NCBI GenBank assembly: GCA_011321725.1 | Contig: DROX01000255.1 | Coordinates: 1-50,460, forward strand | DNA length: 50,460 nucleotides | Source of the DNA: Nitrospirota bacterium | Lineage (GTDB): Bacteria > Nitrospirota > Thermodesulfovibrionia > Thermodesulfovibrionales > JdFR-85 | Direction of reading: 5' to 3' | Shown: positions 15,062 to 24,565 of the stretch, one piece after another | Layout: every line of letters starts with the position of its first letter | Position numbering within the stretch: the first letter of the stretch is position 1 | Program-made: the position numbers and the translations under genes | Notes under the pieces: generated by a model | Database searches by the model: none | What the model saw: only the letters and a program-made list of their open reading frames with translations | What the model was told of the DNA's origin: nothing

Positions 15062-15847
15062 TCACTTCGCAAGTATCTTGTACCAGATCTCAACACTTGT
15101 AAAAATAATGACCAGCATCAGGGAGTACCTCAGGACAAGTGCCGGCGTCTTCTTGCTCACCATACTGCCAAGCTGTGCAGAGGGAATTGAGCTGATAATC
15201 AGGGCAAGTGCAAGTAGCCAGTCAACCTGACCTGTGGCCATCTTACCAATGGCACCCATCACCGCGCCTATAAAGACTATACCAAGGCTCGTTCCAATGG
15301 TAACCCTGATGGGGATTTTCAGGATGTAGATCATTACGGGTATCAGGATAAATCCACCTCCTGCACCAACCATACCTGCCAGTGAACCGATTATGAAACC
15401 CAGGATGATCGCAAGTATCCTGTTGAACTCTATGCTGTCAGGATCGGTTATATTTTCAGCATCCTCTGTCCTTGGGGGAATGAACATCATCACGGCTGCG
15501 ATCACGGCAATCACACCAAAGGCAACCATGAGAAGTTCGTTACTCATGTATTTTGAGATGGTAGAACCGAATCCAGAGCCGATGGCCATTGCCACACCAA
15601 GGGAGAGCATCAGCTTCATGCTTACAAATCTGTTCTTCCTGTGTCTGATTACACCTGAAAACGATGCAAACACAACCTGTATCATTGAAAGCCCTGCAAC
15701 GGCCTTCATGCTGAGCGCACCAACCCCGAGAAGCTTTGGCACCATCAGCATGAGGGGGATCATAATTATGGCGCCCCCGAGCCCAAGGAGCCCTGAAAGG
15801 AATCCACCAAACAGCCCAAGAATCAACAGTACAATAAACATAGCCAT
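15062..15847 (-). CDS. TauE/SafE (TSUP) family anion exporter
   Basis: A 261-residue inner-membrane protein with about eight hydrophobic helices, starting ILGLFGGFLSGLLGLGGAIIMIPL and with the second family repeat AGMVGAGGGFILIPVMIYIL. TSUP members (PF01925) carry sulfite, sulfoacetate, thiosulfate or related organic and inorganic anions; the substrate here is inferred only from the family. AAGGAGG precedes the ATG. It is the last gene of a three-gene unit (Usp-like, 63-residue protein, TSUP) that begins with a sigma-54-like promoter and ends at a strong terminator. The NtrC-type regulator just upstream is the likely activator. Confidence 0.9.
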   Translation of the reverse strand: MAMFIVLLILGLFGGFLSGLLGLGGAIIMIPLMLMVPKLLGVGALSMKAVAGLSMIQVVFASFSGVIRHRKNRFVSMKLMLSLGVAMAIGSGFGSTISKYMSNELLMVAFGVIAVIAAVMMFIPPRTEDAENITDPDSIEFNRILAIILGFIIGSLAGMVGAGGGFILIPVMIYILKIPIRVTIGTSLGIVFIGAVMGAIGKMATGQVDWLLALALIISSIPSAQLGSMVSKKTPALVLRYSLMLVIIFTSVEIWYKILAK

Positions 15848-15859
15848 TTTATCGCCTCC

Positions 15860-16051
15860 TTATTTGCCTTCCACGGGATTTGTAGTTAGATGCATCATCT
15901 CCTGCCTCTTCTTTGAGAGGTCTTTATGTTCCAGGCCTTCCTCTGACTCCCTGATTATCTGCAGTGCCAGCTCATAGTCGCCATGCTGCGCCACTGCAGC
16001 TGCCGCCATCTCATCCTCAAACCTTTTTATTATTCTTCTTAAAAATCTCAT
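15860..16051 (-). CDS. Small protein with the EDEM-AAA-AQHGD module
   Basis: A 63-residue hydrophilic, probably helical protein that I cannot assign to a named family. The segment RFEDEMAAAAVAQHGDYELA is closely matched inside the neighbouring 160-residue Usp-like protein (RLEDEMSAAAMAQHGDLGTA), followed in both by Q-I and later by D-x-S-x-K. It is therefore a stand-alone form of a module of about 40 residues. A perfect AAAGGAGG lies seven bases before the ATG. It sits 12 bases before the TSUP gene and 26 bases after the Usp-like gene, so it is surely co-transcribed. A role as adaptor or regulator of the transporter is an inference. Confidence 0.8.
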   Translation of the reverse strand: MRFLRRIIKRFEDEMAAAAVAQHGDYELALQIIRESEEGLEHKDLSKKRQEMMHLTTNPVEGK

Positions 16052-16077
16052 CTCTATCCTCCTTTAAAAGTGGTTTC

Positions 16078-16560
16078 TCAGACCCTTGCCGGTCTGGACA
16101 TTGTTACAACCGGTCTTGATATCTTCCTTCTCAGTTTCTTGAAGCTCAGCTTCCTGTCACTGTCCATCAGTGAAGGACTGAGGATCACGATCTCAAGGGT
16201 TGGATTGTTCTGGAGAATCTTCTCAATGGCTGAAATAACCTCATCAGTGCTCCAGCTGTGTTCTGTCACGAGACCGCCTCCCTTTGACATGGACTGAAGT
16301 ACCCTCACCTTCTGGCTGGCATCCTTTTTTATCCTTTCATCTCTCTCTGAAAGGATCTGCCTTGCAGTGCCAAGATCACCATGCTGTGCCATTGCCGCAG
16401 CTGACATCTCATCCTCAAGCCTCCCGAGCCCCTCCCTGTTATAATGGAAGAGGACAAACACACCACCTTCAGATATCCTTGCCAGCTCTGCTGCATAGCT
16501 GAAGCCTTCACCGAAGTCAGCTGATTCACCCTTTGTTACAAAGAGCACCCTGCTTTTCAC
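16078..16560 (-). CDS. Universal-stress-like protein with embedded AQHGD module
   Basis: A 160-residue cytoplasmic protein. The N-terminus (KSRVLFVTKGESADFGEGFSYA) and C-terminus (LEIVILSPSLMDSD, SRPVVTMSRP) resemble the alpha/beta strands of a Usp-type fold, but the G-x2-G-x9-G(S/T) ATP motif is absent. Between them sits EDEMSAAAMAQHGD, shared with the adjacent 63-residue protein. The start is GTG, supported by AAAGGAGG upstream. A sigma-54-like promoter lies about 62 bases before it. It is the first gene of the TSUP operon. The exact function is unknown; nucleotide-free Usp-type regulators are one possibility. Confidence 0.8.
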   Translation of the reverse strand: MKSRVLFVTKGESADFGEGFSYAAELARISEGGVFVLFHYNREGLGRLEDEMSAAAMAQHGDLGTARQILSERDERIKKDASQKVRVLQSMSKGGGLVTEHSWSTDEVISAIEKILQNNPTLEIVILSPSLMDSDRKLSFKKLRRKISRPVVTMSRPARV

Positions 16561-16621
16561 TGTCTCACCTCCTTTATTTATCTGAATTTCCTCTTTCCCT
16601 TACCCGTTCGCTTTTATATAT

Positions 16622-16637
16622 CTCAATATACGTGCCA
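16622..16637 (-). promoter_or_regulatory. Sigma-54-type promoter for the Usp-like/63-aa/TSUP operon
   Basis: On the minus strand TGGCAC-GTATA-TTGAG matches the -24/-12 consensus TGGCAC-N5-TTGCW except for A in place of the -12 C. It is correctly oriented, about 60 bases before the GTG start, and the gene immediately upstream encodes an NtrC-family activator with the GAFTGA sigma-54 contact loop. Confidence 0.6.
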
Positions 16638-16911
16638 GGATATAACTATTTGATTTTCAAAGGTTTTTAATATCCAAGAATACGGATGAGTGTTTCAGAT
16701 TTGAACGCACCTGAACAGCTGGACATGAATAGGGATGAAAAGGGGATTACAGGAAGGTATTGAGGCAGAACAGCCCCTGCAGTGCATGCTTTTCATTGAA
16801 TAAAGCGCTAAGGTGGCTTGCGGTGACAAGGATAGTGAGAGTCATCCTGGTCAGAGAAGAGAAAACTTATGCTCTCAGGCAAGGAGAGGGAAAAGGATGT
16901 GCTGGAAAGGC

Positions 16912-16944
16912 GTTGAGGGGCTTTGAAGGACAAAGCCCCTCAAC
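16912..16944 (-). terminator. Long perfect hairpin after the NtrC-type regulator gene
   Basis: Arms GTTGAGGGGCTTTG and CAAAGCCCCTCAAC (14 bp) with loop AAGGA lie 6 bases after the regulator stop. It is well placed to terminate the kinase-regulator transcript before the sigma-54 promoter, although no long T-run follows. Confidence 0.6.
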
Positions 16945-16950
16945 TTTAAA

Positions 16951-18285
16951 TTACTCCTCTTTCAGTATCCTCCACAGGCTGGTCCTTGAGATACCAAGCA
17001 TCTCTGCAGCCTTTGTCCTGTTACCATCAACAAGCTCAAGCACCTTCTGGGCGTACTCCCTTGTAAGCTCATCTACGGTTTTTATGGTCTCAGGAGAGAC
17101 TGTTTCAATTTTGAACAGCTGCATGCTCACGGGCAACGATTCGGGTCTGATATACGGGGTCTTTTCCAGAATCACTGCCCTTTCAATGATATTCTCCAGC
17201 TCTCTTACATTACCAGGATAGCTATAGGACTTGAGTATCTCCATGGCCTCTCTTGTGAAGCCCTTGATATTCCTGTTGGCTGACCTTGCATGCTTCTGGA
17301 GGAAATATCTGCTCAGCGGAGGTATATCCTCCCTCCGTTCCCTGAGCGGTGGGATGTATATCTCCATCACATTAAGACGGTAATAGAGGTCCTTCCTGAA
17401 CCTGCCCTTTTCAATCAGATCCCTGAGATTCTGATTGGTGGCAGCAATGAATCTTACATCCACCTTTATTGGCCTTGTTCCACCCACCCTGAAGAACTCC
17501 TTGTCTTCAATTACCTTCAGGAGTTTGGCCTGCAGCACAGGTGGCATCTCGGCTATCTCATCAAGAAAAAGGGTACCCCTATGGGCAATCTCTATAAGGC
17601 CCTTCTTGGTGGTAACAGCACCTGTGAAGGCACCCTTCTCATGACCAAAAAGCTCGCTTGCAAGGAGTTGCTCCGTAAATATGGCACAGTTGATTGCAAG
17701 AAAGGGTTCATTTCTTCGCATGCCGGTGTAATGGATCAGTTTTGCCACAAGCCCCTTCCCTGTCCCACTCTCACCTGTGATTATCACGTTACAGTCAGAC
17801 TGGGAGATGCTCTTTATAATATCAACAATCTGGAGCATCTTCTTACTGCGAGCGATAAATGTGGGCAGGTCCCTGTCTATTCCAAGGGATGTCCTGAGTG
17901 CTATGTTCTGGTTCTCAAGGCTTTTTTTTTCAAAAATCTTTCTTATCTTCAGGATCAGCTCATCAAGATTGAAGGGCTTTGTTATGTAATCAAAGGCACC
18001 CCTCTTCATGGCCTCCACAGCAGAGTCAATACTGCCAAAACCCGTAATGATTATCACCTCTGTCTCTGGCCATTCATCCTTAATCCGTTCAAGCAGCGTT
18101 ATTCCATCCATTCCAGGCATCTTGATGTCTGTTATCACCACATCAAAATGCTCCTCCTTGAGTCTTTCCATGGCTGCAGCACCATCAGCAACGCCTGATA
18201 CAGTATACCCTTCTTTTTCAAGGGCATAAATCAGGTGCTTGAGCGTGATCTGTTCATCCTCTGCTATTAGTATCTTAAGGCTCAT
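16951..18285 (-). CDS. NtrC-family sigma-54-dependent response regulator (left system)
   Basis: A 444-residue transcription activator. The receiver domain carries the phospho-acceptor Asp in VVITDIKMPGMDG. The AAA+ domain has Walker A GESGTGKG, the sigma-54 contact loop GHEKGAFTGA, and Walker B-type LFLDEIAEMP. The C-terminal Fis-type helix-turn-helix is TKAAEMLGISRTSLWRIL. Its ATG overlaps the stop of the kinase gene upstream (ATGA), so they form one unit. The next operon downstream (Usp-like, 63-aa, TSUP) has a sigma-54-like promoter, making it the probable target. Confidence 0.96.
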   Translation of the reverse strand: MSLKILIAEDEQITLKHLIYALEKEGYTVSGVADGAAAMERLKEEHFDVVITDIKMPGMDGITLLERIKDEWPETEVIIITGFGSIDSAVEAMKRGAFDYITKPFNLDELILKIRKIFEKKSLENQNIALRTSLGIDRDLPTFIARSKKMLQIVDIIKSISQSDCNVIITGESGTGKGLVAKLIHYTGMRRNEPFLAINCAIFTEQLLASELFGHEKGAFTGAVTTKKGLIEIAHRGTLFLDEIAEMPPVLQAKLLKVIEDKEFFRVGGTRPIKVDVRFIAATNQNLRDLIEKGRFRKDLYYRLNVMEIYIPPLRERREDIPPLSRYFLQKHARSANRNIKGFTREAMEILKSYSYPGNVRELENIIERAVILEKTPYIRPESLPVSMQLFKIETVSPETIKTVDELTREYAQKVLELVDGNRTKAAEMLGISRTSLWRILKEE

Positions 18286-19835
18286 ATACCCCTTGGCAAA
18301 TATATGGTAAAGGTTGTACCTCTCTCATTACTTGTTGCCTCTATCCTGCCAAAATGGTTCTTGATTATATTATAAACTATTGACAGACCAAGACCTGTGC
18401 CCTTGTCCTTGGTGCTGAAAAAGGGATCAAATATTTTATCAATATACTCAGCAGGGATGCCAGGGCCTGTATCCGTGACCTCTACCTTCACAACATCCTT
18501 CTCATCATGAATCCTCACCGTTATTTCACCTTCTCCCCTCATCGCATCAATAGCATTTGAAAAGAGGTTAACAAAGACCCTCTCCATCTGCCCCGGATCC
18601 ACGGATATATAAACCTCCTCAGGTGCATGGATGGAAAATCTGACCCCTGTCTCAGGGTATATCTTCTCTATCTGCTCATAGACCCCCCTGATAAGCTCAG
18701 GCAGGTTTACTCGCATCTTCTCGGGCTTCTTTTCCCTGGCAAACTCCAGCAGGTCTCCCACAATCTTCTTTACCCTCAGGGTCTGGCTAAGGATATCCTC
18801 CACTGTTTCTTTTATAATACCCTCACTGGTTCCCTTTACCTCTCTCGCAAGTATCTGTGCAGAGATGTGGATATTGTTGAGAGGGTTGTTCAGTTCATGG
18901 GCAACACCAGAGGCAAGTGTCCCTATTGCGGCAAGTTTCCTGTGTCTGATCAACTCTTCCTCCTTCTTGATTAGCTGTACCTCCCTGTCCCTTAGCGCCT
19001 CTGCCATGCTGTTGTAGGTCCTGATGAGGGTACTGACCTCATCCTTGCCGGAAGGAAATGGCAGCGGGGAATAAAAACCCTCGCCTGTCTTCTCTATGGT
19101 TACCATCAGCTCGTTAAGTCTCTTGACGATATTCTGGGTTACCCTGAAGAGGGCTATAAAGCCAAAGAGAAAGGCAAAGGGGAAGACGACCAGGATGCCT
19201 ATCTCGGATGCCTTAATCACATACTGGACCCTGTAGCGGGCTGCCTTGTCAATCTCTCTGGAGATATCAATGATCTCCTCACCTGAGCTGCGCAGCTTCT
19301 TGACCTGATCGTTGATCTCTTTGAGATGGGTAACAAGCCTGCCATCCCCTCTAAGTGAAAATATCTTTTTCAGCACCGTAATGGTCTGTACAGGGTGTTC
19401 CAGAAAGGTAGACTCCATGACAGGTACGAAGTAACTGTACCTGTCTGAGTAACCTTTAAGCTGCCTGATCTCCCCGATTGTTAACCTTGCCAGCTCTGTT
19501 ATGTAGCTGAAGCGGTCCTCGTACTCACCTATCTTGCCAGCAAGCCTTATGAGATTCCTGTCCTTGGGATTCAAACCCTTGAATGTCGTGATCAGCTGTT
19601 TTGTTTCGGCAAGATACTGGTTTATCTTCTCAACCTCTGTAAAATCACCGTAGAGGAAGAAGTTCTTCTCATGCCGCCTTATCTGTAGGGTCTTTGTCCG
19701 GATGCTGTCCGAGAGCTCAAGAAAGGTAAAATCCCTGCGGGCCTCAAAAAAATCAAACATAGCCAGCGTACCGAATAAGGCCACTATGGCAAAGCTGGCA
19801 GAGAATATGAGTATGATCTTCTTCTTGATAGACAT
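18282..19835 (-). CDS. Sensor histidine kinase (left system)
   Basis: A 517-residue inner-membrane kinase. It has a first membrane helix (about residues 6-28), a helical periplasmic sensor of about 175 residues (RRHEKNFFLYGDF region), a second helix (about 212-232), HAMP, a short coiled coil, then HisKA with the phosphorylated His in GVAHELNNPLNNI and HATPase with NLFSNAIDAM, DTGPGIP and GTGLGLSIV. Unlike its mirror-image partner, it lacks a CxxCH motif. The RRHEKNF element resembles helical sensor modules of chemoreceptors. It is divergent from the second kinase gene across about 90 bases and overlaps its cognate regulator by four bases. Confidence 0.94.
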   Translation of the reverse strand: MSIKKKIILIFSASFAIVALFGTLAMFDFFEARRDFTFLELSDSIRTKTLQIRRHEKNFFLYGDFTEVEKINQYLAETKQLITTFKGLNPKDRNLIRLAGKIGEYEDRFSYITELARLTIGEIRQLKGYSDRYSYFVPVMESTFLEHPVQTITVLKKIFSLRGDGRLVTHLKEINDQVKKLRSSGEEIIDISREIDKAARYRVQYVIKASEIGILVVFPFAFLFGFIALFRVTQNIVKRLNELMVTIEKTGEGFYSPLPFPSGKDEVSTLIRTYNSMAEALRDREVQLIKKEEELIRHRKLAAIGTLASGVAHELNNPLNNIHISAQILAREVKGTSEGIIKETVEDILSQTLRVKKIVGDLLEFAREKKPEKMRVNLPELIRGVYEQIEKIYPETGVRFSIHAPEEVYISVDPGQMERVFVNLFSNAIDAMRGEGEITVRIHDEKDVVKVEVTDTGPGIPAEYIDKIFDPFFSTKDKGTGLGLSIVYNIIKNHFGRIEATSNERGTTFTIYLPRGI

Positions 19836-19881
19836 GATTTTTTATTTTAACTCTTTTAGCAGAAAAGCTGCATCGCCTTGA

Positions 19882-19912
19882 TAGACAGGGCTCGGTTGAT
19901 TTACAGTATAAT
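19882..19912 (+). promoter_or_regulatory. Promoter of the right-hand kinase gene
   Basis: TAGACA and TATAAT are separated by 19 bases. A perfect 11-base palindrome (TACGGACCGTA, 19916-19926) sits between the -10 and the ATG at 19929, where a bound protein could block initiation. No Shine-Dalgarno is seen. Confidence 0.45.
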
Positions 19913-19928
19913 ACATACGGACCGTACA

Positions 19929-21578
19929 ATGGCCATTATGAAGATCAAAGGACTAAATAGCCTCAGTTTCAAATTCAGTTTTATCGTGGGGGTAATCCTC
20001 TTTCTCTTCTCAACGCTCCTTTCCATGATACTTTACTATTACCTGAGAGCACACGCCATTGAGAATGCAGAGAGAAAGACCCTGATTATAATGACCTATG
20101 TCAAGGCTATTGGTGATTATGTAAAAGACTCCTTCAGGCCAAGGATGCTTGAGATCATCTCAAGGTTAGACCCTGAGGATGAATTCCTGGTTGAATCAAT
20201 CTCCACCACGCATGTGAATATGGAGATAATGAAAAAATTCAACAAGGATATACATGACTATGTATACAAAAGGGTCTCTGACAGACCCTTGAACCCCCAA
20301 CACCGGGCTGACAGTTTCCACATGAAGATGATAGAGTATTTCAGAAAGCATCGTGACAGAGATTCCTGGCACTCCATTGTAAAACTTGACAACAGGGAGA
20401 CCCTTGTCTATGCCCGTCCTGTAATAAGCAACAAGGGATGTCTCCTGTGCCACGGAGAAAAGGAGAGGGCACCTGCTGCAATAGTCAAAAAATACGGCAG
20501 GGATGGCAACTTCGGCTGGCAGGCTGGCAGGATAGTGGGGGTTGAGACCGTCTCAATCCCAATGGATAAAACATTTGAGTATCTCCGGGGTATTGCATTG
20601 AGCACCTTTCTGTTTGGACTGGTAACACTGGGAGCCCTCTTTTTTGCAATCTATGAGACCTTTACACAGCTTGTGACCCGCCCCATAGGGAGGCTCTCAA
20701 ATGTCTTCAAAGGGATAGTCAGTGGTTCATTACCCCTTGGCAAGGACATTGACGTTACAAACAAGGATGAGATAGGTGAACTCACAGAATCCTTTAACAT
20801 ACTGGCAAGACACCTCCATGAGGCACAGGAAAGGCTGAAGAGAACGGCAAGGATTGAAAGGCAGATGATGGAAACAGAGAAGCTTGCTGCCCTTGGACAG
20901 CTCTCGGCAGGCATAGCCCATGAGATAAACAATCCCATTGGTGGCATAAAGCTCTGCTTCAACAACCTGATCAATACAGAGATGGATGAAGAAACCAAAC
21001 AGCAGCACATAGAGGTGGTACAGTCAGGGCTGGACAGGATCCAGGCGATAGTAAAACAGCTGCTTGAATTCTCAAGGAACACTCCCCTCAACATCACGCC
21101 TGTAAAGGTAGACTCCATCATAGACAATGTACTGAAGATCTCGGAGTATACAATATCAAAAAAGGGCATAAAGATAGAGAGAGACTCCTCACCCGATATA
21201 CCAACGCTTTGGGTTGACTCAAACAAGATGGAACAGGTACTCCTGAACATAATAATAAATGCCATACAGGCGATGGATGAAGGTGGCACCCTGACCATCA
21301 AAACCTGGTTAGAGGGTGAAAGATGCAATATATCAATATCTGACACAGGCAGGGGCATCCCCGGGGATATCATCTCCAGGATATTTGACCCCTTCTTTAC
21401 CACAAAGGAGGTGGGAGAGGGTACCGGGCTCGGGCTTACCGTAAGTAAGGCCATTGTGGAACAACATGGCGGTTCAATAGAGGTTGAGACTTCAGAAAGA
21501 GGAACAACCTTTACAGTAAGGATACCATTGGGTCAGGAACCTGAGACCCTCAAGGGAGGCAATCCTCATGACCGATAG
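19929..21578 (+). CDS. Haem-binding (Tll0287/DUF3365-like) sensor histidine kinase (right system)
   Basis: A 549-residue inner-membrane kinase. The track's TTG start at 19878 lies before the promoter, so ATG 19929 (MAIMKIKGL) is chosen. One membrane helix (about 13-35) leads to a periplasmic sensor of about 180 residues containing C171-L-L-C174-H175, within YARPVISNKGCLLCHGE; this is the c-type haem motif in the context typical of Tll0287-like (DUF3365) domains. A second helix (about 221-245), HAMP, HisKA (AGIAHEINNPIGG) and HATPase (NIIINAIQAM, DTGRGIP, GTGLGLTVSKAI) follow. It probably senses redox state or a haem ligand such as NO, CO or sulfide. It overlaps the regulator gene by 11 bases. 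Confidence 0.93.
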   Translation: MAIMKIKGLNSLSFKFSFIVGVILFLFSTLLSMILYYYLRAHAIENAERKTLIIMTYVKAIGDYVKDSFRPRMLEIISRLDPEDEFLVESISTTHVNMEIMKKFNKDIHDYVYKRVSDRPLNPQHRADSFHMKMIEYFRKHRDRDSWHSIVKLDNRETLVYARPVISNKGCLLCHGEKERAPAAIVKKYGRDGNFGWQAGRIVGVETVSIPMDKTFEYLRGIALSTFLFGLVTLGALFFAIYETFTQLVTRPIGRLSNVFKGIVSGSLPLGKDIDVTNKDEIGELTESFNILARHLHEAQERLKRTARIERQMMETEKLAALGQLSAGIAHEINNPIGGIKLCFNNLINTEMDEETKQQHIEVVQSGLDRIQAIVKQLLEFSRNTPLNITPVKVDSIIDNVLKISEYTISKKGIKIERDSSPDIPTLWVDSNKMEQVLLNIIINAIQAMDEGGTLTIKTWLEGERCNISISDTGRGIPGDIISRIFDPFFTTKEVGEGTGLGLTVSKAIVEQHGGSIEVETSERGTTFTVRIPLGQEPETLKGGNPHDR

Positions 21579-22935
21579 GGGAACATTAAAAAGACATATA
21601 CTCATAATTGAAGATGAGCCCAGTCTGCGGCTGGGAATGAAACACTTCCTCACATCCCAGGGCTACGCCGTCTCACTCTGTGCTGACGGTGCCCAGGGTA
21701 TGGAAGCAGTAAAAAGAGGCGACTTTGATCTCGTAATCACTGATATCAGGCTACCCCACTGTAGCGGTTTTGAGATTCTGAAGAACCTGAAGGAACTGCA
21801 CCCTGACAAGGGTATAATACTCATAACAGCCTATGCAGACATAAAAGATGCTGTTCATTCAATAAAGGAAGGTGCCTTTGATTACATTGCAAAGCCCTTC
21901 TCAAACGAGGAACTTCTTATAACGATTGAGCGTTTCTTCAGGTTCCAGAGCCTTGAAAACGAGGTAACCCTCCTGAGAGAGACCCTGAAGAGGAGAGAAA
22001 GTTTTGCAGATATTATCGGTGCAAGCCCGGGGATGAAGATGGTATTTGACAGGATCTCCTCTATTGCCAACACGGATGTACCTGTACTGATTGAGGGAGA
22101 AAGTGGCACCGGTAAAGAACTGGTAGCCAATGCCATACATAACCTGAGCAGCAGGAAGGACAAACCCTTTGTCAAGATAAACTGCGCTGCCATCCCGGAG
22201 CATCTCTTTGAGTCGGAACTCTTTGGACATGAGCGGGGCGCCTTCACAGGTGCCACCGAGACCCGTAAGGGAAAGTTTGAGTTTGCCAGTGGTGGCACAA
22301 TTTTCTTTGACGAGATTGGCGATATCCCCCTGGTACTACAGCCAAAACTGCTCAGGGTAATAGAGGAGCATGTTATAACAAGGCTTGGTGGCAATGCCAC
22401 AATAGCTGTTGATGTACGAATAATCTACGCCACAAGCAAGAATCTGAAGGAGCTGGTAAAGGAGGGAAAGTTCAGAGAGGAGCTTTTCTACAGGATCAAT
22501 GTGGTACCCATACAGATACCCCCCCTCAGGCAAAGGCGGGAGGATATCCCCTACCTTATAGACCATTTCCTCAGGCACTACATGAAAAAATTTGACAAAC
22601 AGCAACTACGCATATCCCAGGAGGCATACCATGCACTGCTGAGCTATCACTGGCCAGGAAATGTAAGGGAGCTGAAACATGCCATGGAGAGGGCAGTGGT
22701 GCTCTCAAAAGATGGTGTGATAACCCTAAGAGACCTGCCAGAAGAGGTTTCAGGCCTCAGTATTCCCTGCCTTTCAGAGGGATATACCCTTGAGGAGAGT
22801 CTCAGGTGTTTTGAAAGAGAGATGATCTGCAGGGCACTCAAGGACACAGGCGGTAAAAAGACCGAGGCAGCCCGCAAGCTTGGCATAAGCAGAAAGGTGC
22901 TCTGGAAGAAAATGAAGGACTACGATATTGAGTAG
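21568..22935 (+). CDS. NtrC-family sigma-54-dependent response regulator (right system)
   Basis: A 455-residue activator. The receiver domain has the acceptor Asp in LVITDIRLPHCSGF; AAA+ has Walker A GESGTGKE, GHERGAFTGA and IFFDEIGDIP; the Fis-like DNA-binding helix pair is TEAARKLGISRKVLWKKM. It is coupled to the haem kinase by an 11-base overlap. The next gene downstream is the YeiH-like exporter, whose leader has a canonical sigma-54 promoter and an upstream dyad at typical enhancer distance, so this regulator is very likely its activator. Confidence 0.96.
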   Translation: MTDRGTLKRHILIIEDEPSLRLGMKHFLTSQGYAVSLCADGAQGMEAVKRGDFDLVITDIRLPHCSGFEILKNLKELHPDKGIILITAYADIKDAVHSIKEGAFDYIAKPFSNEELLITIERFFRFQSLENEVTLLRETLKRRESFADIIGASPGMKMVFDRISSIANTDVPVLIEGESGTGKELVANAIHNLSSRKDKPFVKINCAAIPEHLFESELFGHERGAFTGATETRKGKFEFASGGTIFFDEIGDIPLVLQPKLLRVIEEHVITRLGGNATIAVDVRIIYATSKNLKELVKEGKFREELFYRINVVPIQIPPLRQRREDIPYLIDHFLRHYMKKFDKQQLRISQEAYHALLSYHWPGNVRELKHAMERAVVLSKDGVITLRDLPEEVSGLSIPCLSEGYTLEESLRCFEREMICRALKDTGGKKTEAARKLGISRKVLWKKMKDYDIE

Positions 22936-22947
22936 TTCCCTTGAGGT

Positions 22948-22987
22948 AACATCCCTGAAGACATAGATGTTCCTTGCCGGGAACATC
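22948..22987 (+). promoter_or_regulatory. Candidate activator (UAS) dyad for the right-hand regulator
   Basis: GATGTTCC and GGAACATC form a perfect 8-bp inverted repeat with a 6-base spacer (22966-22987), and a further half-site AACATCC lies at 22948-22954. The dyad ends about 70 bases before the -24 element, a normal distance for NtrC-type enhancers. It could also be an mRNA hairpin ending the kinase-regulator transcript, but no T-run follows. Confidence 0.55.
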
Positions 22988-23057
22988 CATTCTCATCAGG
23001 ACAATATTCTTTTAAGAATTTCACTTAAAAATCAAGCCCTAACAAAATTTCACCAGC

Positions 23058-23073
23058 TGGCACCATGATTGCT
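23058..23073 (+). promoter_or_regulatory. Sigma-54 promoter of the YeiH-like exporter gene
   Basis: TGGCAC-CATGA-TTGCT is a full match to the -24/-12 consensus TGGCAC-N5-TTGCW. Transcription should begin near 23085, giving a leader of about 80 bases that contains a 6-bp GC hairpin (CCCCGA/TCGGGG, 23112-23130) before the GAGGAGG ribosome site. Confidence 0.85.
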
Positions 23074-23164: not shown

Positions 23165-24565
23165 ATGGAAGAGAAAAAGGCTGAAACCACCCCTATGCCA
23201 CACTCATCGGGTATGGGGTGGAAGGAGTTGTGGTTGAAGGAGGACTGGTGGGCGGTATGGTTAGGACTTGGCATTGTCGTGGTGGCGTACTTCTTCTTTG
23301 CAAGTGGCAGCACCATAAAACCGATAGCGATCAAGCCGGCGAAGTGGCACACCTTTGCACAGTTATGGTCGGATTTCATCAGTCATATTGGTGCCTATGC
23401 AGCCAATTTTATTATCTGGCTTGTCATCTTTAGCGTAAGCACTGCCATACTGGGGTTCAAACAGTCAGAGTTCATCCCATCCTTTATCTTCGTCTACATC
23501 TTCTCGGTAATTATCTTCATGATCGGTGCATGGGACAAGGCCCACAACTACAACCTTGAACCACCACTGGTAGCACTGGCGCTGGGAATGATAATCTCCA
23601 ATGTCTTCAGACTTCCCAAATGGATGGACACGGGCTTCAGGGTTGAGTACTACATCAAGACAGGCATAGTGCTGCTTGGTGCAACACTGCCCTTCACATT
23701 GATAATCTGGGCTGGTCCTATCGCATTTGTGCAGGCAACAATTGTGTCTGTTACAACCTTTCTGGTCATATTCTTCGTGGGCACAAAGGCCCTGGGGCTT
23801 GACAAGAGGCTTGCCTCATGTCTTGGTGCTGGAGGTGCTGTCTGTGGTGTCTCCGCAGCCATTGCAATCGGCGGTGCAGTAAAGGCTAAAAAGGAGTATC
23901 CCTCCATCGCCATAACAATGGTGATTATCTGGGCGATCATAATGATCTTCTTCCTGCCTCTTGTCTCAAGGGCTATGGGCCTCCATGCGGGTATTGTTGG
24001 AGCCTGGGTAGGAACCTCCGAGTTTGCGGATGCGGCAGGCTTCGCTGCGGCACAGGCATACGGTACAATGGCACAGAACCTGCCGAACATCCCTGGCACC
24101 GAGGATGCAGCTGTCTGGGGATTCACCCTCATGAAGGTCATTGGCAGGGACATCTGGATTGGCATCTGGGCATTTGTTCTTGCCCTTATATCCACCATGA
24201 AGTGGGAGGCTGAGGAATCCGGGGTCAGGCCAAGCCCTGCTGAGATATGGTGGAGATTCCCCAAGTTCGTGCTTGGCTTCTTTGCTGCATCCCTTCTCAT
24301 GACCGCCATATCAAGCGGCTACACCCTTGAGGCCTACAACAAGGTGGTCAAGCCCATGCTTGTTGGACCCATCAAGACGATGAGGACATGGTCATTCATA
24401 TTCTGCTTCTTCAGTATAGGCCTTACCACAAGGTTCAGGGAGCTGACCAAGACAGGCGCAAAACCCTTCTGGGCCTTCACTGCCGGGGTGGTGGTAAATG
24501 TAATCCTTGGATTCATACTCTCTGTGCTTGTATTTGGTAACTACTGGTCAAGCCTTGGCAAATAG
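23165..24565 (+). CDS. YeiH-type putative sulfate exporter (PSE family, PF03601)
   Basis: A 466-residue inner-membrane protein with about 11 hydrophobic segments. A soluble N-terminal lead of about 30 residues precedes the first helix. Family-like features are PPLVALALGMIISN, the glycine-rich CLGAGGAVCGVSAAIAIGGA and GAWVGTSEFADAAGFAAA. The family name putative sulfate exporter comes from annotation and from association with sulfur metabolism; the transported ion is not experimentally settled for most members. The protein is longer than the usual 330-350 residues because of the N-terminal lead with an extra paired helix segment. GAGGAGG lies before the ATG. Control by the adjacent haem kinase/NtrC pair is inferred from the sigma-54 promoter. 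Confidence 0.9.
   Translation: MEEKKAETTPMPHSSGMGWKELWLKEDWWAVWLGLGIVVVAYFFFASGSTIKPIAIKPAKWHTFAQLWSDFISHIGAYAANFIIWLVIFSVSTAILGFKQSEFIPSFIFVYIFSVIIFMIGAWDKAHNYNLEPPLVALALGMIISNVFRLPKWMDTGFRVEYYIKTGIVLLGATLPFTLIIWAGPIAFVQATIVSVTTFLVIFFVGTKALGLDKRLASCLGAGGAVCGVSAAIAIGGAVKAKKEYPSIAITMVIIWAIIMIFFLPLVSRAMGLHAGIVGAWVGTSEFADAAGFAAAQAYGTMAQNLPNIPGTEDAAVWGFTLMKVIGRDIWIGIWAFVLALISTMKWEAEESGVRPSPAEIWWRFPKFVLGFFAASLLMTAISSGYTLEAYNKVVKPMLVGPIKTMRTWSFIFCFFSIGLTTRFRELTKTGAKPFWAFTAGVVVNVILGFILSVLVFGNYWSSLGK

Follow-up and report, generated by a model that had tools for sequence, protein, structure and literature searches.

A predicted sigma-54 promoter with a tandem enhancer precedes a PSE/YeiH-like transporter gene in a Nitrospirota bacterium

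The NtrC sites of the Escherichia coli glnAp2 promoter lie at about −108 and −140, and the E. coli NtrC consensus is TGCACC..GGTGCA. These two high-affinity activator sites stand upstream of a sigma-54 promoter (PMC3870243). In Desulfovibrio vulgaris, TSUP or PSE (putative sulfate export) transporters of unknown substrate are encoded by nine sigma-54-dependent operons (PMC4641369), and two-component NtrC-family regulators are described (DVU0539, DVU0946, DVU0110; PMC4641369, PMC3333781). In Salmonella, YeiH, a transporter of the same broad family (PF03601), is required for sulfite resistance and is activated by the product of a neighbouring gene, the LysR-type regulator YeiE (PMC12880088).

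The locus analyzed in this study lies in a stretch of 50,460 nucleotides (the whole stretch analyzed, hereafter the window) from a Nitrospirota bacterium; among named organisms, its closest relatives are Nitrospirota MAGs, of which some carry the label Thermodesulfovibrio sp. The locus very probably comprises a tandem enhancer upstream of a sigma-54 promoter, the right-hand NtrC-family regulator as activator and a PSE/YeiH-like transporter as output (Table 1). The positions of the two glnAp2 sites closely match those of the two dyads found here, which are centred at −107.5 and −141.5 relative to the predicted start. However, the dyad here is of the form TGTTCCC-N4-GGGAACA and not the NtrC consensus, the regulator scores below the equivalog cut-off of TIGR01818 (NtrC/NR(I); 463 against 558.6 bits), and the target is one transporter and not the nitrogen genes. 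The term NtrC-type, which the initial annotation applied to this enhancer, holds for its architecture and should be restricted to it, since its sequence differs from that consensus.

In a comparison of regulators, promoters and transporters, the locus shares with Desulfovibrio the two-component NtrC-family regulators and the PSE/TSUP transporters under sigma-54 promoters in a sulfate reducer; it differs in phylum and in its haem-c Cache kinase, which the passages considered here do not mention for Desulfovibrio. As PSE transporters under the control of sigma-54 are known from that genus, this type of circuit has a precedent, and the locus is a well-supported further example of an already known type of switch, not a new type. 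The likeness to YeiE-YeiH is that of a neighbouring regulator activating a related transporter, as predicted here, although the regulator there is of the LysR type and the system here is a sigma-54 two-component system; moreover, the window transporter exceeds the gathering cut-off of PF03601 (160 against 24.5 bits) but falls outside the YeiH subfamily TIGR00698 by score (96 bits, NCBIfam cut-off 232.6). A literature search confined to one collection of papers returned no description of the dyad motif or of the circuit.

Table 1. Features of the locus, in window coordinates.
Feature	Coordinates	Strand	Basis
Sensor histidine kinase, Tll0287/DUF3365 (haem-c Cache), HAMP, HisKA, HATPase	19878..21578	+	Pfam PF11845, 6e-34
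NtrC-family response regulator, predicted activator	21568..22935	+	Pfam receiver, AAA+ with GAFTGA, Fis-type HTH; orthologue analysis
Distal predicted activator dyad, AGTTCCC-TTGA-GGTAACA (AGTTCCCTTGAGGTAACA)	22934..22951		2 mismatches to TGTTCCC-N4-GGGAACA; position conserved in orthologues
Proximal predicted activator dyad, TGTTCCT-TGCC-GGGAACA	22968..22985		1 mismatch to conserved consensus; centre −107.5
Sigma-54 −24/−12 promoter element, TGGCACCATGATTGCT	23058..23073	+	TGGCAC-N5-TTGCT; predicted start 23084
PSE/YeiH-like membrane transporter, predicted target gene	23165..24565	+	PF03601, 6.8e-47

The promoter element matches both GG-N10-GC and TGGCAC-N5-TTGCW exactly, is kept in orthologues, and in the pattern search was the sole exact TGGCACN5TTGCW of the window, where 0.09 would be expected; the full-consensus box reported by the initial annotation was thus confirmed. 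The start predicted from it by the −12 rule lies one nucleotide before the earlier estimate of about 23085. The host genome encodes rpoN (PF04552, 212 bits). Between 22800 and 23250, a promoter search returned no sigma-70-like promoter; the leader had no Rfam match and folded no better than shuffled sequences (z 0.23), and an inspection by eye between enhancer and promoter showed no evident conservation of an IHF site.

The perfect dyad previously noted, GATGTTCC-N6-GGAACATC at 22966-22987, is present above chance (0.36 sites expected in the window, allowing up to three mismatches), and the proximal site of Table 1 is its core. Its edge-to-edge distance to the sigma-54 box is about 70 nt, in agreement with the original estimate. 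The AACATCC sequence described as an extra half-site is also there; it is not a lone half-site, but makes up the right arm of another complete dyad, the distal one, the left arm of which begins inside the TAG stop codon of the regulator gene (22933-22935). In the 2.6 Mb genome of the host, the locus dyad is the only perfect match with either of the two patterns tried, and a search for a wider dyad regulon in this genome and nine relatives gave near matches at the level of a reversed-pattern control. As no other site in the host genome rises above background, the right-hand regulator looks dedicated to this single locus.

The conservation check proposed at the outset was carried out on the 20 best regulator homologues, in the region around and downstream of each stop codon, and alignment of the close relatives showed that both dyads and the sigma-54 box are kept. 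All 15 orthologues with the HTH sequence LGISRKVLW carry a pair of TGTTCCC-N4-GGGAACA sites, 30-34 nt apart and adjoining the regulator stop, and each best site beat all 500 shuffles, with a scoring consensus partly derived from the same sequences. A strong sigma-54 box follows the dyads in 14 of these 15, with the proximal dyad centred between −85.5 and −109.5 and the distances clustering near −86, −97 and −108, that is, in helical steps of approximately 10-11 bp (R 0.79 at 10.5 bp; p 0.0001 over all and 0.003 on eight distinct distances, both optimistic since orthologues are not independent). Tolerance of sigma-54 enhancers for insertions or deletions of 10-11 bp has been predicted and found (PMC4740811). 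The dyads are therefore conserved, tied to their cognate regulator and in register with the promoter, as an enhancer would be.

The fifteenth orthologue, L126, has kept the regulator and lost the adjacent transporter; its sigma-54 box is gone and its dyads, with 3 and 4 mismatches, are decaying, as one would expect once an enhancer has no target. The five remoter homologues (HTH SRKA, SRKT or SRET) have no dyads around or downstream of the stop codon; among these five, L140 retains a sigma-54 box. In L128-L131, from other families, a Usp-like gene comes first after the sigma-54 box and a distant YeiH-like gene adjoins it, so that the same enhancer type stands before a different leading gene.

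Strong sigma-54 boxes within the 330 bp before transporter genes were also counted. Such a box precedes 10 of the 15 transporter genes that have the two-component pair upstream and 3 of the 4 that have it nearby, but only 2 of the 56 transporter homologues that lack it. In four of the remaining five (L071, L083, L090, L102), the box instead precedes an intervening stretch or gene of approximately 1.2 kb. The gene between box and transporter reads as an exported double rhodanese in L083 (3515-4489) and L102 (3451-4419), which suggests a sulfur-handling operon.

In a second set of 13 loci, a transporter of the same family and a haem-Cache kinase are accompanied by a regulator whose HTH reads ...ERQSLQHLMRKYGI. 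The tandem dyad of this set is TGCAA-N8-TTGCA, located before the sigma-54 box and, in most loci, at the regulator stop codon; support for this motif comes from all the loci taken together, since the best-site shuffle p is weak (0.016-0.088) in 4 of the 13 loci. The transporters of L043 and L018 group with that of the window in the tree (100/100), the L043 protein being 93% identical to it, and their regulators group with the second set (100/100), as do their dyads by type; the genome of L043 (G003) is congeneric with one that carries the first dyad type (G010). Judged from these comparisons of sequence, the dyad type follows the HTH type of the right-hand regulator and not the transporter, so that the assignment of the dyads to this regulator, as first proposed, is supported. 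Of the evidence gathered here, this is the strongest for the predicted binding of the dyads by the right-hand regulator. The swap of regulators between close relatives with near-identical transporters amounts to a natural experiment on the joint change of enhancer sites and DNA-binding domains. Among regulators of the second group (L018, L068, L083 and others), a C-terminal ANKI-stop is conserved; part of the reason may be that an enhancer dyad (TGCAAATAAAATATAGCA) is formed by its codons.

Other readings of the dyads were weighed against these data. The divergent left-hand NtrC-family regulator (16951-18285), a sigma-54-type activator approximately 3 kb away that adjoins its own kinase, could bind them alone or together with the right-hand one, and regulators of this kind can share sites in Desulfovibrio (PMC3333781). 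However, the orthologues of the left-hand regulator (L143, L145) precede another type of sigma-54-like box and another conserved block, before Usp-like and TauE genes, and the TGTTCCC dyad tracks the HTH type and stop-codon position of the right-hand regulator also in genomes of other families; we therefore consider a role of the left-hand regulator at these sites very unlikely.

It is still less probable that the dyads act in the transcript of the regulator, as terminators or RNA hairpins, and that the sigma-54 box alone is regulatory. Inverted repeats directly after a stop codon can indeed be terminators, but a search of the + strand between 22800 and 23250 returned no terminator-like site, the two copies maintain a set spacing and a helical register to the promoter, and in L131, L132 and L134, where the regulator has a longer C-terminus, the dyads fall within the coding region. 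As for chance matches in an intergenic region, the counts expected for the box and the dyad in 50 kb, each taken alone, are modest, yet the elements are jointly conserved and co-vary with the regulator, which reduces this explanation to a nearly negligible one. The data thus favour a tandem enhancer bound by the right-hand regulator.

Near this locus and at others, further arrangements of similar form were seen. The divergent left-hand two-component system (15062-19835, − strand) resembles a second sigma-54 circuit, with a sigma-54-like box (16637-16622) before a Usp-like gene (16078-16560) and a TauE/SafE family gene (15062-15847). At −12 this box has GA and not GC; the orthologous boxes in L143 and L145 likewise are without GC (GT and GA) and share an upstream GTTCA..TTCAAAT-TGAAAC block. 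Some relatives seem to lack the left-hand regulator, but this was dropped as evidence, being unreliable due to contig ends. At L004 (G000, contig C120, 1100-1800, − strand), dyads of the TGTTAC-N6-GTAACA type and a sigma-54-like box, TGGTATGAATATTGCC, come after a paralogous regulator with 51% identity; they precede a gene whose product, as read from the sequence, is a 4Fe-4S electron-transfer protein containing CxxCH.

Concerning the function of the circuit, what is established for these protein families suggests the following. The haem-c Cache kinase, with its sensor domain expected in the periplasm, would phosphorylate the adjacent regulator, dimers of which would bind the two dyads, about three helical turns apart; the bound dimers would form an AAA+ oligomer, loop to the sigma-54 polymerase at the promoter element and use ATP to open it, with transcription starting near the predicted position and one gene, the transporter, as output. 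The regulator has the GAFTGA motif of NtrC-family enhancer-binding proteins at residue 224, and the kinase combines the PF11845 domain with a CxxCH motif (CLLCH at residue 188) flanked by two hydrophobic segments; CxxCH was present in all 19 cognate kinases checked. The DUF3365/Tll0287 domain is described as a Cache domain that binds haem c covalently, and NO-sensor-like behaviour is reported for one signalling member (PMC12889525, preprint). The signal here might be NO or redox, an assignment taken from that one preprint on other proteins of the domain family.

Sulfite or sulfate export by the transporter is plausible, and the rhodanese neighbour and dsr genes fit a sulfur role. The dsrA family of dissimilatory sulfite reductase is encoded in the genome, so sulfite is a likely metabolite, and the transporter would probably export sulfite or a related sulfur oxyanion, although transfer of the substrate from Salmonella YeiH is weak because the score of the window protein is far under the cut-off of the YeiH subfamily.

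We tentatively suggest, giving it somewhat less than even weight, that the locus belongs to a dedicated circuit widespread in Nitrospirota and Desulfobacterota, in which sulfur-oxyanion export is controlled via sigma-54 by a haem-c Cache kinase that responds to NO or redox in the periplasm, and in which regulator-plus-enhancer cassettes have been swapped between transporters while the sigma-54 box stayed put. The present analysis links a recently described haem sensor domain, few of whose physiological outputs are known, to a transporter family of unproven substrate, for which it provides precise, testable predictions of where the activator binds and where transcription starts.
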